This document shows positions 1 through 5,329 of a stretch of DNA of 5,329 bases, piece by piece. A model generated the notes under the pieces. It saw only the letters and a list, made by a program, of their open reading frames with translations, ran no database searches and was not told where the DNA came from. Location: contig JAFGKQ010000254.1 in NCBI GenBank assembly GCA_016928495.1, positions 1 to 5,329 on the forward strand. The letters are read 5' to 3'. The stretch's first letter is position 1. Each line of letters begins with the position of its first letter. The position numbers and the translations under genes were made by a program. Origin of the DNA: Candidatus Fermentibacterales bacterium (GTDB lineage Bacteria > Fermentibacterota > Fermentibacteria > Fermentibacterales > JAFGKQ01).

Positions 1-107
1 TCCTCGATGGCGTTCTCGTACCTGATCGGCATCAGGAACCCGGCGAAGGGGTGGACCTTCGCCCCCAGCTCCACGTGCTGATCGTATAGAGGCGTCTTCT
101 TCTCCAT
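1..107 (-). CDS. gcvT: Glycine cleavage system T protein (aminomethyltransferase), N-terminal fragment cut by the window edge
   Basis: Reading leftward from an ATG at 107, 35 codons stay open to the window edge. The peptide starts MEKKTPLYDQHVELGAKVHP and continues FAGFLMPIRYENAIEE. This matches the conserved N-terminus of GcvT: TPLY-x(2)-H, then LGAK, then FAG-[FWY]-x-MP-[IV]-x-Y. GcvT is the folate-dependent aminomethyltransferase of the cytoplasmic glycine cleavage complex. It takes the aminomethyl group from lipoylated H protein, releases ammonia and forms 5,10-methylenetetrahydrofolate. The start is supported by a Shine-Dalgarno sequence, GGAGAGG, at 111-117 just upstream. Most of the protein, usually about 360-370 residues, lies outside the window, so its integrity and the presence of the other gcv genes cannot be judged. 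Because the fragment is short, a GcvT-like paralogue is possible but less likely. Confidence 0.88.
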   Translation of the reverse strand, partial: MEKKTPLYDQHVELGAKVHPFAGFLMPIRYENAIE

Positions 108-294
108 GGTCCTCTCCGTGAGGAGGGCCTCTCCGCAACGGCAGAAGGCCGCCGTCAGAGATGCCCCGGCTGATGGGCCAGAGCTCCGCTTTCTTCGGAA
201 GCAGGAAGATTTCGCCTGAATGTATGAGTGTAAACCCTTCGAGGCAACTCGGCGTGGGGGTGCGAGGGCTGTTTCCGGGCGCTACCATCGGGTC
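108..294. other. Divergent intergenic region between gcvT and the plus-strand gene
   Basis: About 187 bp separate the gcvT start from the preferred start of the plus-strand gene, so both promoters should lie here. A short inverted repeat, ACGGC at 138-142 and GCCGT at 151-155, could form a hairpin in the gcvT leader. I see no good -35/-10 pair for either direction. On the minus strand, CGAAGG (236-241) and TCAGGCGAAA (210-219) faintly recall glycine-riboswitch core words, but the rest of that fold is not evident. If the plus-strand gene starts at 220 instead, the region shrinks to 112 bp. Confidence 0.5.
111..117 (-). promoter_or_regulatory. Shine-Dalgarno sequence of gcvT
   Basis: On the minus strand this reads GGAGAGG. 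Its GGAG core lies 6 nt before the gcvT ATG, which fixes that start. The same word, preceded by C (CGGAGAGG), occurs again at 128-135, with a pyrimidine-rich CCCTCCTC between the copies. The intervening stretch could pair weakly with either copy, but the stems would be only 3-4 bp, so no regulatory role is claimed. Confidence 0.6.
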
Positions 295-858
295 ATGGGG
301 CGGTCGGACGTGATCTCGCTCGGCAGGCTCACGAGATGGGCCATACGAAGAGAGGCGGCGAAGTGCCCGGGGCAGCCGGGCCACGCCGTGCTGCAGCTCA
401 CTGCGGAGGCCGTCGCGAGGAGGGCGCTCCTGCGGATCGGTCTGCCATCCTGGAGAAGCGACGACAGCCCGGGAAGCAGGGGAAGGTACGGGCTTCTCTT
501 CACCGGGGGCAGAAGAGCCATTGTCGTGCCCCGGCAGGTCCCGTCTCTTCCGAAGCTTGACGAGATGCTCCTGGCGGCCAGCGACTTCCTTCTCGTCGTC
601 TCGGTCTCCCGGGACAGGACAGGCGGTCGCCTGGTCGGCTTCGCCACCTGGAGCGAGTATGGCGACCAGACCACCATGGGGCTTGCGGGAGTCCCGGACG
701 CCCTCGCCCTTCACCCCCCGGGCCGCCTTACGGAGCTGCTCTCTCCCGTCAGTCACCCCGGGATAGTCCTGGCGCTGGCAACGTTCAGACTGCTGGCAAT
801 TGGAGAGAAGAGGCCGGCGGCGCCGGGCGACTGGAGCCTCCCGGACCTGCCCGAGTGA
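295..858 (+). CDS. Hypothetical protein of 187 residues; possible degenerate PDDEXK-like fold
   Basis: I do not recognise this protein by name. The frame is open with strongly G/C-biased third positions (35 of the first 40 codons after the start Met), so it looks truly coding. An upstream in-frame ATG at 220 would give 212 residues. It has a weak AGGA at 203-206, but codons 220-294 have much poorer bias (14 of 24 end in G or C), so I favour 295, although no clear Shine-Dalgarno precedes it. The layout is a helix around residues 30-50 (LTAEAVARRALLRIGLPSW), a strand pair near 64-80 (RYGLLFTGGRRAIVVPRQ), a strand at 97-105 (DFLLVVSVS), then LVGFATWSEY (113-122) and a helical C-terminus. This recalls PDDEXK-type proteins of the form 'YDLLV-x(n)-I-E-V-K ... 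GYAT-x-EE', but the acidic and lysine positions are Gly, Val and Pro here, so nuclease activity is not supported. It converges on the exporter genes with a 5-bp gap. Confidence 0.7.
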   Translation: MGRSDVISLGRLTRWAIRREAAKCPGQPGHAVLQLTAEAVARRALLRIGLPSWRSDDSPGSRGRYGLLFTGGRRAIVVPRQVPSLPKLDEMLLAASDFLLVVSVSRDRTGGRLVGFATWSEYGDQTTMGLAGVPDALALHPPGRLTELLSPVSHPGIVLALATFRLLAIGEKRPAAPGDWSLPDLPE

Positions 859-871
859 GCCGGTCAGGCTC
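857..871. terminator. Small inverted repeat spanning two convergent stop codons; possible weak bidirectional terminator
   Basis: GAGCC (857-861), the five bases GGTCA, then GGCTC (867-871) form a perfect 5-bp, GC-rich stem. It overlaps both the plus-strand gene's TGA (856-858) and the exporter gene's TGA (864-866, minus). There is no T-run on either side, so intrinsic termination is doubtful. It is nevertheless the only hairpin at this junction. Confidence 0.25.
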
Positions 872-2948
872 TCGCGTACTGGAGCAGGTAGAGGTTGTAG
901 TAGATCCCCCTGCTGGCGAGAAGCTCCTGGTGGTTTCCTCTCTCGAGGATCCTGCCATCATCGATGACCAGTATCTCGTCGGCGCTCTGTATGGTGCTGA
1001 GGCGGTGAGCCACGACGATGCTGGTCCTGCCCCTCATGAGAGTCCGGATGGCTTCCTGGATCAGCTTCTCGGTGGACGGGTCGACGCTGCTCGTGGCCTC
1101 GTCCAGTATCAGGACCCTGGGATCGTGGGCGAGGGCCCGCGCGAAGCAGATGAGCTGCTTCTGCCCGGTCGAGAGCGTGGCGCCGCGCTCCGCCATGACC
1201 TCGGAGAAGCCGGAGGGCAGCCTCTCGACGAAGCCGCTGGCCTGGACCATGTCGGAGGCCCGGGCGACCTCCTCGCTGGACAGCCGCTTCCCCAGCCTGA
1301 CGTTCTCCTCGATCGACCTGCTGAAGATGAAGGCATCCTGCAGGACTATGGCTATGCTGCGGCGCAGCGTGTCGGTCCGGAGCTCCCTCAGGTCGATGCC
1401 GTCCAGCAGGATCTCACCCGAGTCGGGATCGTAGAATCTGCAGAGAAGGCTTATGATGGAGGTCTTCCCGGCTCCGGTAGGCCCCACGAGGGCAACGCTC
1501 CTGCCGGGCCTCACGCTGAAGGAGACGTTCCTCAGCACGGGCTTGCCGGGCACGTAGGAGAAGCAGACGTTGCGGAACTCCACCTCGCCGCGGACGCCTC
1601 CGGGCGGGGACTCCGGCGAGGCCGGCTCAACGATCACGGGAGCGGTGTCCACGATGCCGAATATCCGTTCCGCCGCAGCCATGGCTCCCTGCATGATGTT
1701 GTACTTCTCGCTCATATCGCTGATGGGCTGGAACATCTGGCGCACGTAGGAGAGGAAGGCGACCAGGGCCCCGAGCGTCAGTGCCCCGCCGATGACTCCG
1801 AACCCGCCGTAGACCAGCACGATCGCGATGCCGGTGTGCGCTATGATCATGACTATCGGCCTGAAGACCCCGAAGATCACGAGCTGACGCATGTTGGCGG
1901 AGAAATACTCGAGGTTGGTCTCCCTGTACTCGTCCCTTCTCGCGGCCTCCTTCCTGAAGACCTGGATCACCTTGATGCCCGAGAGGTCCTCCGCGAGCCT
2001 GGAGTTGAGACTGGCCAGCAGCCTGCGGACCTCGCGATAGGCCCCTCTGGCCTTCTTCCTGAAGAACACTGACGCTGCAGCGAACACCGGCACCACGACG
2101 AGGGACGCGAGAGCCAGCTCAGCGTTCAGCAGGAAGAGGATGACTATGGTCCCGAACACCAGCAGCAGGTCCTTGACCAGGTTCACCAGTACCGCGGTGA
2201 ACATCTCGTTCAGAGCCTCGATGTCGTTGGTCACTCTGGTTACCAGCCGTCCGACCGGGTTCCTGTCGAAGAAGGACAGCGACAGCCGCTGGATGTGGCG
2301 GAACAGGGATGTCCTCAGGTCGTACATCGAGCGCTGGCCGGCGATGCCCAGAGTGACGACGTGCCCGTATCCGGCAGCCAGCCCGATCAGGATGAGCAGG
2401 CCTGCCAGCAGCGCCAGCCTGGCGATGCCGACCATGTCCGGATGACGTATCCGGACGAGGGTCGCGGGAGGTACCCGGGAGAGCTCGCTCTCGGGAACCA
2501 GCCAGTACTCGCCTCGCACCTCGCCGGTCTCTCCGGTCGAGGTTTCGGCCGGGAAAAGGTAGTAGGTCTCGGGATGAAGCGTGCCCGAGGCGACCAGGGC
2601 CTCTCTGCTCTCGCGGTCGAGGTCCTCCAGGGCGGCCTTCCTGATCAGCACGCTGCCCCGATCCAGCGGAAGGAAGTCGCTGCCGGCCGGATCCATGGCG
2701 ATCACCGAATCGGCGACCGCGGAGGTCGTGTCGAAAACCTGGTAGAGCCTTGCGAGGTATCGGTCGATGCCGACCTTCGAGATGTATGGAAGGGCCAGCT
2801 CGAGCAGCGTCGAGACCAGCATGAACAGCATGGCCAGGAAGATCAGCTTCCTGTGAGGCGTGACGTAGCGCAGCAGCCTCCTGACCATGCGCGCATCGTA
2901 GGCCTTGCCGTCCACGTAGTCACTGGAGAACGGGGAGCCGCCTCTCAC
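864..2948 (-). CDS. ABC exporter half-transporter, BmrD/TM288-like subunit (canonical Walker B, altered signature, extracytoplasmic insertion)
   Basis: This 694-residue membrane protein fuses a six-helix exporter domain to an ATPase domain and should pair with the product of the gene upstream. Membrane helices fall near 35-57, 175-196, 250-275, 278-296, 353-380 and 386-408. Between the first two is an insertion of about 105 residues (65-172) predicted to face outside. ATPase motifs are Walker A GPTGAGKT (489-496), Q-loop Gln537, signature LSTGQ (592-596, Thr replacing the first Gly), Walker B VLILDE (612-617) with the catalytic Glu, and H-loop His648. In the dimer its Walker motifs plus the partner's LSGGQ would form the active ATP site. 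The start is GTG, overlapping the upstream stop as GTGA, with AAGGGGG seven bases before it, so translation is probably coupled. B. subtilis BmrD (YheH) has a similar insertion and the same gene order. The substrate (drug, lipid or peptide) cannot be read from sequence. Confidence 0.93.
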   Translation of the reverse strand: MRGGSPFSSDYVDGKAYDARMVRRLLRYVTPHRKLIFLAMLFMLVSTLLELALPYISKVGIDRYLARLYQVFDTTSAVADSVIAMDPAGSDFLPLDRGSVLIRKAALEDLDRESREALVASGTLHPETYYLFPAETSTGETGEVRGEYWLVPESELSRVPPATLVRIRHPDMVGIARLALLAGLLILIGLAAGYGHVVTLGIAGQRSMYDLRTSLFRHIQRLSLSFFDRNPVGRLVTRVTNDIEALNEMFTAVLVNLVKDLLLVFGTIVILFLLNAELALASLVVVPVFAAASVFFRKKARGAYREVRRLLASLNSRLAEDLSGIKVIQVFRKEAARRDEYRETNLEYFSANMRQLVIFGVFRPIVMIIAHTGIAIVLVYGGFGVIGGALTLGALVAFLSYVRQMFQPISDMSEKYNIMQGAMAAAERIFGIVDTAPVIVEPASPESPPGGVRGEVEFRNVCFSYVPGKPVLRNVSFSVRPGRSVALVGPTGAGKTSIISLLCRFYDPDSGEILLDGIDLRELRTDTLRRSIAIVLQDAFIFSRSIEENVRLGKRLSSEEVARASDMVQASGFVERLPSGFSEVMAERGATLSTGQKQLICFARALAHDPRVLILDEATSSVDPSTEKLIQEAIRTLMRGRTSIVVAHRLSTIQSADEILVIDDGRILERGNHQELLASRGIYYNLYLLQYARA

Positions 2949-4750
2949 GGGACTTCCCCCTTGCCGTCGTCGCCGGTCTTCATGGCCTCCTCCTCGAGCC
3001 GCTGCATCCGGTAGAGCTCGGAGTAGAAGCCCTCGTTCGAGAGCAGCTCCCGGTGAGTGCCCTGCTCGACGATCCTGCCGTTGTCGAAAACCAGTATCAG
3101 GTCCGCGCCCATCACGGTGCTGATGCGGTGGGCGATCACGATCGAGGTCCTGCCGCTCATCTCCGTGCGGAGCCGCGACAGGATCGCTGCTTCCGTCTCG
3201 GTGTCCACGCTGGAGAGGGCATCGTCCAGGATGAGTATCCTCGGATCGGCAGCGAGAGCGCGCGCAATGGCCACCCTCTGCTTCTGACCGCCGGAGAGGG
3301 TCACGCCTCTCTCGCCTACCAGAGTGTCGAAGCCATCGGGGAACTCACGGATCTCGGAAGCGATCTCGACCAGCCCGGCCAACTCCTCTATCCTCTCGCG
3401 GGAGACGCTCTCGGCACCGAAGGCGATGTTGTCCGCTATGCTCATGGCGAACAGGAAGGTTTCCTGGGGAACGTAGCCGAACATTCGCCTGAGGTGGTCC
3501 AGCTCCAGCTCGGAGATCTCCCTACCGCCCACGAAGACGGTGCCGCGAGGCGGATCGTACAGCCTCATCAGCAGCTCGACGAGGGTCGTCTTCCCGGAGC
3601 CGGTCCTTCCGACGATCCCCAGCATGGCGTTGGCCTCTAGCGTGAAGCTGGCATCCGCCAGGACGTCGACGTCCGTCTGAGGGTAGCGGAAGGTCAGGTT
3701 CCTGACCTCGATGGAAGGCGTCCGGATATCGCAGACCTGCCCGCCCGCGATGTCGGGAGGGGTGGCGAATATCTTCTCGAGACGGTCCATGCTCGCCGTG
3801 CCCCTCTGCAGGATGTTGACGACCCACCCGACCGCCATCATCGGCCATATGAGCATCCCCAGGTAGCTGGAGAAGGCGACGAACTCGCCGAGAGAGACCT
3901 CGCCGTAGATCACCATCCTGCCGCCGGCACCGAGCAGGATGGCCGTGCTCGCCATCGCGAGGGCGCCTATGATCGGGCCGAACAGACCCCAGATCCTCAC
4001 GAGCCTGACGTTCTCGACAACGCAGTCGTTGGCCTTCTCGGAGAAGTAGGACTCCTCCGATATCTCGTCGCCATAGGCCTTGACCACCCTCACTCCGGAC
4101 ATGCTCTCCTGAGCCTTGTCGGTAAGCCTGGAAAAGGCCTCCTGAACGGCCGTGAACCGGCTGTGGACCAGCTTGCCGAACCGGAGCATCATGAGAGACA
4201 GCAAGGGCAGGGGGATCAGCGTCAGCAGGGTCAGCCTGAGATCCATGGTGACCATGATGCTTATGCTTGCCGCCGCGAGGATGATCGCGTCTATCGAGGC
4301 GAGAGCGGCCATGCCGGTCGCCATCCTGACCGCCTGGAGGTCGTTGGTGGCATGGGCCATGAGATCCCCGACCCTGGTCTTGTCGTAGTACTGCGGTGAG
4401 AGGCTCTGAAGGTGGTCGTAGAGGTCCTGCCTCAGGTCTCGCTCGATCCTGTGGCTGGAGCCGATGATGAAGAACCTCCAGCCGAACCTGCAGATCCCCA
4501 TGCCAAGGGAGACCAGGACGATTGCCGCCCCGGCCAGCCAGAGCTGTCGGGGAGTGGCCATGCCGCGCGCGAGGGCATCCACGGCGTACTGCATGATCTT
4601 GGGGATGATGAGCTGAAGGCCGTCGACCCCGATGAGGGCGACGATTCCGACAGCAAGGGCTTTCCTGTGGCGTAGCAGCAGCCCCAGGATGTTGCGGAGG
4701 CTCGATCTCCTCATCCTGCCGAAGTCGGCTCTGGACGGCGACTCGGCCAA
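2945..4750 (-). CDS. ABC exporter half-transporter, BmrC/TM287-like subunit (degenerate Walker B, canonical signature)
   Basis: This 601-residue protein is the partner of the 694-residue exporter subunit. Six membrane helices lie in residues 30-310 with only short outer loops, followed by an ATPase domain from about 345. Motifs are Walker A GRTGSGKT (381-388), Q-loop Gln429, a canonical LSGGQ signature (485-489), Walker B ILILDD (505-510), D-loop SSVD (513-516) and H-loop His541. Asp510 stands where the catalytic Glu normally is, so its own ATP site should bind but hydrolyse poorly, as in TM287 and BmrC. The canonical LSGGQ would instead complete the partner's active site. The annotated start is a TTG at 4750 with only a weak purine stretch (GAAAGAGAG) upstream. 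The next candidate is the ATG of Met13 at 4714, which leaves all domains intact. The gene is probably co-transcribed with the downstream subunit and perhaps with the lipoprotein gene 62 bp upstream. Confidence 0.93.
   Translation of the reverse strand: MAESPSRADFGRMRRSSLRNILGLLLRHRKALAVGIVALIGVDGLQLIIPKIMQYAVDALARGMATPRQLWLAGAAIVLVSLGMGICRFGWRFFIIGSSHRIERDLRQDLYDHLQSLSPQYYDKTRVGDLMAHATNDLQAVRMATGMAALASIDAIILAAASISIMVTMDLRLTLLTLIPLPLLSLMMLRFGKLVHSRFTAVQEAFSRLTDKAQESMSGVRVVKAYGDEISEESYFSEKANDCVVENVRLVRIWGLFGPIIGALAMASTAILLGAGGRMVIYGEVSLGEFVAFSSYLGMLIWPMMAVGWVVNILQRGTASMDRLEKIFATPPDIAGGQVCDIRTPSIEVRNLTFRYPQTDVDVLADASFTLEANAMLGIVGRTGSGKTTLVELLMRLYDPPRGTVFVGGREISELELDHLRRMFGYVPQETFLFAMSIADNIAFGAESVSRERIEELAGLVEIASEIREFPDGFDTLVGERGVTLSGGQKQRVAIARALAADPRILILDDALSSVDTETEAAILSRLRTEMSGRTSIVIAHRISTVMGADLILVFDNGRIVEQGTHRELLSNEGFYSELYRMQRLEEEAMKTGDDGKGEVP
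2956..2962 (-). promoter_or_regulatory. Shine-Dalgarno sequence inside the upstream ABC gene
   Basis: On the minus strand AAGGGGG lies within the last codons of the upstream exporter gene, 7 nt before the GTG at 2948. It settles that GTG as the start of the downstream subunit and supports independent or coupled reinitiation across the 4-bp overlap. Confidence 0.65.
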
Positions 4751-4765
4751 GGTCTCACTCTCTTT

Positions 4766-4795
4766 CCGCCTGGCGGCGGGAGGACCCGCTGCGGG
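4766..4795. repeat. Two small GC-rich palindromes in the lipoprotein-exporter gap
   Basis: CCGCCTGGCGG (4766-4776) and CCCGCTGCGGG (4785-4795) are both 11-bp perfect palindromes around a central T, 8 bp apart, in the 62-bp gap (4751-4812). Each could form a 4-bp stem with a 3-base loop in the transcript. No T-run follows in the direction of transcription, so they do not look like an intrinsic terminator. They might be an mRNA stability or processing site, or chance in GC-rich DNA. Confidence 0.35.
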
Positions 4796-4812
4796 GCGTC
4801 AGCGTTTCCCTG

Positions 4813-5184
4813 TCAGTCGGTGTCGTCGACCGGCTCGGGTGCCCCGAGCAGTGCGTAGTCGGACACCTCGATCAGGTGTAGTCCCGGCATGGGGAACCAG
4901 GCACTGCGGGCGTCGTCGGCCGCGACCACCGTGCCCCTCACCAGGAACCTCTGCCCGTACTTGTCGATGAGCTCGTCGGCCGGGTCGCCGACGAGTCCGT
5001 AGATCTCACCGGAAAGCTCCTCCTCGAGAACCACGCCTTCGTTGCCGGACCCGGAGCCGACTACCTGAATGACCCCGGTGACCTCGACCACGCCCTCACC
5101 CGATCTATAGACCTGCTGCCCGCAACCGGCAGCCATCAGAGCAACCACTGCGTAAACCGGGACACGCACCATTTTCCGGGTCAT
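4813..5184 (-). CDS. Small predicted lipoprotein with OB-fold-like domain; start lies inside a palindromic repeat
   Basis: The 123-residue product begins with a lipoprotein-type signal peptide. The n-region MTRKMVRVP is basic, residues 10-19 (VYAVVALMAA) are hydrophobic, and AAGC puts the lipid-modified Cys at 21. The mature part (22-123) alternates short beta-like stretches: VVEVTGVIQVV, VVLEEELSGEIYGLVG, then DELIDKYGQRFLVRGTVV, and finally LHLIEVSDYALL. This 'VxGxI...GxxYxLxG...ExxxxYGxxxxVxG...IxVxxY' pattern looks like an OB-fold of the kind seen in small envelope proteins. No enzyme motif is visible and the role is unknown. The ATG at 5184 is chosen because it gives a complete signal peptide. 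The ATG at 5172 would give a shorter but still usable one, and a GTG at 5238 would add an unlikely 18-residue tail. AAGG lies about 11 nt and AGGGG 2 nt before 5184. The first nine codons come from a repeat that recurs twice upstream. Co-transcription with the exporter is possible. Confidence 0.75.
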   Translation of the reverse strand: MTRKMVRVPVYAVVALMAAGCGQQVYRSGEGVVEVTGVIQVVGSGSGNEGVVLEEELSGEIYGLVGDPADELIDKYGQRFLVRGTVVAADDARSAWFPMPGLHLIEVSDYALLGAPEPVDDTD

Positions 5185-5217
5185 AACCCCTGCCGCCTTC
5201 TTCCCGGGAATTGTGCG
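5165..5217. repeat. Palindromic unit 1, overlapping the lipoprotein start
   Basis: The left arm is 5165-5180 (CGCACCATTTTCCGGG) and the right arm 5203-5217 (CCCGGGAATTGTGCG). They can pair over about 13 positions with a small internal loop and one C/T mismatch, leaving a 22-nt loop (5181-5202). On the minus strand the loop holds AAGG, AGGGG and the lipoprotein ATG (5184), and the left arm encodes part of its signal peptide. Confidence 0.7.
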
Positions 5218-5237
5218 CTGTGACAAAAATGGGGACA

Positions 5238-5289
5238 CGCACCATTTTCCGGGTCATATCTCCCAGCTCCGCTGCCCGGGAATGGTGCG
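5238..5289. repeat. Palindromic unit 2, best-conserved hairpin
   Basis: The left arm is 5238-5253 (CGCACCATTTTCCGGG) and the right arm 5275-5289 (CCCGGGAATGGTGCG). Nine pairs, a small asymmetric internal loop and five GC pairs give a strong stem with a 21-nt loop (5254-5274). A competing shorter stem is also possible here, AAAATGG (5226-5232) with CCATTTT (5242-5248); neither of the other copies is preceded by that AAAATGG. Confidence 0.75.
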
Positions 5290-5329
5290 CCGACATCAGT
5301 AACCGGGACACGCACCATTTTCCGGGTCA

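Follow-up and report, generated by a model that had tools for sequence, protein, structure and literature searches.

Insertions of small mobile repeats at the starts of genes are usually taken as annotation artefacts or as damage. At the right end of the contig analysed here a repeat runs in frame into a lipoprotein gene, which raises the question of whether the repeat now provides the start of that gene. The window, that is, the whole stretch of DNA analysed, is the complete contig C16 (positions 1-5329, 5,329 nt), the end of which falls inside the third repeat copy. The source genome (2.3 Mb in 337 contigs, 64% G+C) is 81% complete. It is probable that a mobile terminal-inverted-repeat (TIR) element was inserted at the 5' end of the lipoprotein gene, and that an arm of it now gives the start codon and the n-region of the signal peptide. 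The features concerned are listed in Table 1. A plus-strand ORF of 212 aa (window 220-858), convergent with the pair of ABC transporter genes, was without any Pfam match.

Table 1. Features of the lipoprotein locus and of the repeat array in the window
Feature	Position	Strand	Basis or remark
Second ABC transporter of the pair	864..2948	-	
ABC transporter adjoining the lipoprotein gene	2945..4750	-	Neighbour conserved in relatives
Lipoprotein gene from inner ATG (MVRVPVYAVVALMAAGC...)	4813..5172	-	Start matching homologues
Gene-derived hydrophobic stretch and lipobox (VYAVVALMAAGC)	5122..5157	-	
Repeat copy 1	5155..5183	+	Tag end CGGGACAC at 5158, pointing to the lipoprotein gene; repeat search and genome copies
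Inner ATG, inside the repeat	5170..5172	-	Homologue start position
Outer ATG (MTRKMVRVP...)	5182..5184	-	Alternative start, better-placed Shine-Dalgarno-like sequence
Degenerate inverted partner of copy 1 (CCCGGGAATTGTGCGC)	5203..5218	+	Repeat search (family D18), folding
Repeat copy 2, full GGGGACAC tag	5228..5256	+	Reverse-strand TGA closes the lipoprotein frame upstream
Degenerate inverted partner of copy 2 (CCCGGGAATGGTGCGC)	5275..5290	+	Repeat search, folding
Repeat copy 3	5301..5329	+	Cut by contig end

Three copies of a repeat of 25-29 bp lie in the same orientation at the contig end with a spacing of exactly 73 nt, and a repeat search of the window gave 93-100% identity among them over 29 nt. 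All three share the 25-mer GGGACACGCACCATTTTCCGGGTCA without a difference; the 26-mer formed with the closing T is present in copies 1 and 2 only, because the contig stops at 5329, within copy 3. The second arm of the window units is degenerate (CCCGGGAATNGTGCGC). Hairpins spanning the units were better than those of shuffled sequences in most foldings (z -2.3 to -3.8), and the hairpin of copy 1 itself was no better than shuffles (z -0.3).

Based on a 20-mer and allowing up to 3 mismatches, 29 copies were identified in the genome against none for the reversed-pattern control, so the repeat is not a product of chance; a degenerate pattern of the repeat gave 49 matches (2 for the control). The conserved part of the aligned copies is TAAT[TC]GGGGACA[CT]GCAC[CT]ATTTTCC. 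Most copies, including copy 2 of the window, carry the outer end GGGGACAC, and window copies 1 and 3 carry CGGGACAC. Clear inverted doublets were found on C331, C309 and C281 and a tandem cluster on C16, while most copies in the genome are singlets. The gene context of the copies was determined with a simple codon-usage gene caller on 32 contigs or stretches; on these crude calls most copies are intergenic, and the outer end is often no more than 25 bp away from a stop codon, which on C240 and C281 is itself part of the TAATT flank of the repeat. Several copies are located at gene 3' ends (C145, C255, C315, C240, C281), some of which contribute the stop codon or a short tail at the C-terminus, e.g. 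GTRTI*.

The comparison genomes were 41 others of the phylum, all of them outside the genus and family of the source genome. No repeat with at most one mismatch was present in these 41 genomes, from which the family is essentially absent, and a set of 44 other genomes contained isolated 3-mismatch matches to the 20-mer only. The repeat was without a match in viral contigs, and its sequence was not found in the literature. A scan of 84,980 species genomes for the 19-nt core gave a single exact match, in an unrelated bacterium, Alcanivorax sp. MAG NORP25 (L031:2388-2406), and no transposase related to the two of the present genome was seen near it.

The repeat is best described as a GGGGWSAS-type TIR element of the TIR/TIRtron class (PMC3733652), because it occurs in inverted pairs, because copies lie directly at stop codons and because inverted GGGGACAC-tagged ends delimit a REP-type transposase in the genome. 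That study described RAYT-like genes flanked by terminal inverted repeats sharing GGGGWSAS, some of which form dispersed families with dimers and clusters. The present family has the GGGGWSAS motif at its outer end and is moderately abundant (29-49 matches), with the dimers and the tandem cluster named above. It is like the TIRtron/TIRYT repeats in its outer GGGGACAC motif, inverted dimers and clusters, moderate copy number and a RAYT-like transposase with GGGGACAC-tagged inverted ends, but it is a new sequence family, no transposase carrying precisely this repeat was identified, and starts are provided besides the positions at stops. REPINs (PMC3116915) are the closest structural analogue, having inverted doublets that form hairpins, near-identical tandem clusters and presumed movement by a RAYT in trans; here, in contrast, the tag is GGGGAC, many copies are singlets, no RAYT adjoins and the second arm is degenerate in the window. 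GTAG REPs adjoin gene ends and provide stop codons (PMC3733652); this assignment was rejected on the basis of the aligned copies, in which one end is GGGGAC and a GTAG tag is missing. A CRISPR array was rejected as well, for the segments between the copies have the inverted half-arm (D18) in common and copies of the repeat are scattered over many contigs.

Two REP-type tyrosine transposases are encoded by the genome, on C90 and C225. Their matches to NF047646 (E 3e-17 and 2e-14) are below the curated cut-off of that model, and those to Y1_Tnp are above its cut-off. The C90 gene is bounded by inverted GGGGACACATCACTTATCTC, which has the same motif as the repeat family in a different repeat, and the C225 gene by inverted GGGGACGTAGTTAAAG... 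The repeat core was missing from the stretches examined around both genes, no significant match to either transposase was obtained by tblastn in the contigs that carry the repeat or at the Alcanivorax locus, and a transposase carrying exactly this repeat was not found in the 81%-complete genome. The tyrosine transposase of the family itself would be bounded by GGGGACACGCACYATTTTCC. A second GGGGAC-tagged family, GGGGACGTAGTTA, was represented by 17 copies (control 0), including those at C225:1050-1062 and 2298-2310, which bound the REP-type transposase, and 15 in further places; together with a GGGGACAC end it makes up asymmetric elements of 121 bp on C145 and of 83 bp on C255.

Of 41 same-order genomes searched, 36 contain a homologue of the frame at 4813-5184; one weak match lies outside the order. 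In most of the loci examined an orthologous ABC transporter (51-66% identity) adjoins the homologue. Judged by these homologues, the lipoprotein gene is real, conserved and syntenic in relatives. Its frame is intact to the stop codon and its codon-position composition is coding-like (GC3 0.81). The mature lipoprotein is 32-35% identical to its homologues, versus 44% between two other genera, and the neighbouring ABC transporter is equally conserved and not extra-diverged; the lower identity of the lipoprotein is a hint of relaxed constraint. Where unambiguous, the starts of the homologues are located 14-20 residues before the lipobox Cys and have their own AGGAG/GGGAG-like sites, and the n-regions are unrelated to the one encoded by the repeat. 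In the alignment the columns of M5 (inner ATG, 5172-5170) and C21 are invariant and MTRK is without a counterpart; the first-pass annotation had proposed this comparison, and the extension is indeed absent in relatives.

The minus strand at 5184-5159 reads ATG ACC CGG AAA ATG GTG CGT GTC CC and encodes MTRKMVRVP, continuing in frame as ...CG GTT TAC GCA GTG GTT GCT CTG ATG GCT GCC GGT TGC (VYAVVALMAAGC), exactly as the first-pass annotation had read it. For a type II signal peptide the lipoprotein rule (PS51257-like) places the lipobox Cys at 15-35 and a K or R in the first 7 residues. This pattern was found from the outer ATG 5184 (C21), the inner ATG 5172 (C17) and GTG 5169. Starts at 5172 or 5238 had been named as competitors of the repeat-provided one; 5172 fits the homologues yet is itself inside the repeat, and GTG 5238 fails the lipoprotein rule. 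After the repeat the only in-frame starts are GTG 5148-5146 and ATG 5136-5134, which lie 8 and 4 residues before the Cys, and upstream the frame is closed by the TGA on the reverse strand of copy 2. Because the later starts leave too little signal peptide and the TGA lies upstream, any workable start is in the repeat array.

Within the array two ATG codons compete. The Shine-Dalgarno interaction at the outer ATG (-6.1 kcal/mol) equals the gene median, and the inner ATG is without a well-spaced site; Shine-Dalgarno strength would thus slightly favour the outer ATG, and homologue position the inner one. As the homologue starts match the inner ATG (5170-5172), MTRK may be dispensable, and the shorter MVRVP start appears at least as likely as the MTRK start because the homologues are without the extension. 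The outer ATG also needs the GGGTCAT tail, which is peculiar to the C16 tandem array. The earlier placing of the start at the outer ATG thus held in that both candidate codons (5184-5182 and 5172-5170) are in the repeat, with the choice of codon less certain, the homologues pointing to the inner one.

A second gene, on C205, unrelated to the lipoprotein gene, appears to have the same arrangement: the reverse arm gives ATG AGG AAA ATA GTG CAT GTC CCC ATT TTC GCT GCG GTG GCG CTG GCG (MRKIVHVPIFAAVALA), the predicted protein starts MRKIVHVP|IFAAVALAGG, and GGAGG is located 8 nt upstream of the ATG. Three genomes from two genera contain homologues, whose n-regions differ from it and whose starts lie 14-15 residues ahead of the equivalent site. 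The gene-side flanks are AT-rich in both cases (GTTTAC on C16, ATTTTC on C205), which would fit an AT-rich target in a 64% G+C genome, such sites occurring at stop codons and at the beginnings of signal-peptide genes. Four further candidates, on C282 (UvrD-like ORF), C273 (ORF resembling a phosphoesterase), C309 and C194, were rejected since better starts are available downstream of the repeat (identities by eye). The wider claims of the first-pass annotation fared less well: a ready-made start in every copy fails, for many copies elsewhere carry CACTAT, giving ATA at the inner-ATG position, and only about 2 of some 40 copies provide an N-terminus; the idea of a secretion start wherever the element lands is likewise weaker.

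In the three relatives, from two genera, the homologues of the C205 gene (L107:1055-1099, L108:1465-1512, L109:1468-1515) have a single in-frame TGA exactly at the would-be lipobox Cys, reading M...LLCG-TGA-GS or M...FLSQG-TGA-GGS in an otherwise intact frame; the gene of the window genome has GGA at this position. A full-length match to the tRNA-Sec model, above cut-off, is present in these relatives and in the source genome (C136). Selenocysteine at the lipidation site is possible, given the in-frame TGA at the Cys position and the tRNA-Sec match; hairpins after the TGA were no better than shuffles.

Use of mobile sequence in N-termini has precedents, both repeat-encoded N-termini (RPE) and a MITE forming part of a signal peptide (Yersinia YPO1552) having been published (PMC2229807). 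In the latter case, the YPAL/RU-2 MITE (reviewed in PMC2229807), a mobile repeat is likewise part of the signal peptide of a putative exported protein, but the MITE ORF is itself hydrophobic, whereas here a conserved lipoprotein would receive no more than its start and basic n-region from a short arm. Rickettsia palindromic elements (PMC2229807, PMC3733652) also encode segments of conserved proteins, N-termini included; these add internal or terminal peptide segments, whereas here the start codon would be replaced.

In the course of events that we favour, a small non-autonomous GGGGWSAS TIR element (REPIN/MITE-like), presumably moved by a RAYT/TIRYT-type tyrosine transposase, would have been inserted at an AT-rich site (GTAAAC, plus strand) at codon 3-5 of the conserved gene, and the tandem array would have formed afterwards. 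The ancestral 5' end, as reconstructed from homologues only about 30-37% identical, would have lost its native Shine-Dalgarno site together with the start and the first few codons. Read on its reverse strand, the outer arm, as ATG-GTG-CGT-GTC-CCG (M-V-R-V-P) or ATG-ACC-CGG-AAA-ATG... (M-T-R-K-M-V-R-V-P), would replace the lost start and the basic n-region of the type II signal peptide (one to three basic residues), and the lipoprotein would continue to be expressed and exported. The dispersed family, the syntenic gene with unrelated homologue n-regions, the lack of a usable start outside the array and the second gene on C205 support the earlier proposal that the element was inserted at, or exapted as, the 5' end of the gene.

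The most serious alternative, which we consider unlikely, is that the array split the gene from its promoter, Shine-Dalgarno site and start, the in-frame ATGs being fortuitous and the gene silent or poorly expressed. Loss of the native Shine-Dalgarno site with weak substitutes, divergence of the lipoprotein beyond expectation and the hairpin-forming tandem sequence upstream would all agree with such damage; but the frame is intact with coding-like composition (GC3 0.81), the conserved positions are kept, the arm is exactly in frame, and the C205 gene has a good Shine-Dalgarno site. It is very improbable that translation starts downstream, with the repeat as an RNA control element only. The reverse strand can fold around the start region, and an untranslated position is reported to be common for REPs at ORF 5' ends, many of those at annotated N-termini being suspected of it (PMC3733652); the downstream GTG and ATG, however, leave 8 and 4 residues before the Cys against 13-19 in the homologues. 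Hardly credible is the view that the repeat was already part of the ancestral gene start and that the family spread from sites of this kind, which no empty site among the genomes compared contradicts, since the copies are mostly intergenic beside unrelated genes and 3' ends, have an inverted-pair architecture and are absent at the orthologous start in relatives.

Replacement of the 5' end by the inserted arm thus remains the preferred reading. What appears to be new is the element family and, in one genome, two candidate cases of an arm replacing the start of an exported protein, for one of which the homologues suggest that no other start works. The locus is a clean test of whether the arm of a mobile element can replace a translation start and an export-signal n-region without killing the gene, since, judged by homologues and frame, only the array offers a usable start, and a second gene has the same outcome. 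It is quite unlikely, though conceivable, that the outer arm with its AT-rich target (reverse strand RK-[MI]-V-[RH]-V-P-[IV]-[FY]) is a recurrent portable start and n-region for exported proteins. If so, a secreted-protein gene would tolerate an insertion close to its 5' end or might even have its expression rewired by it, and the two independent cases would be the first examples.
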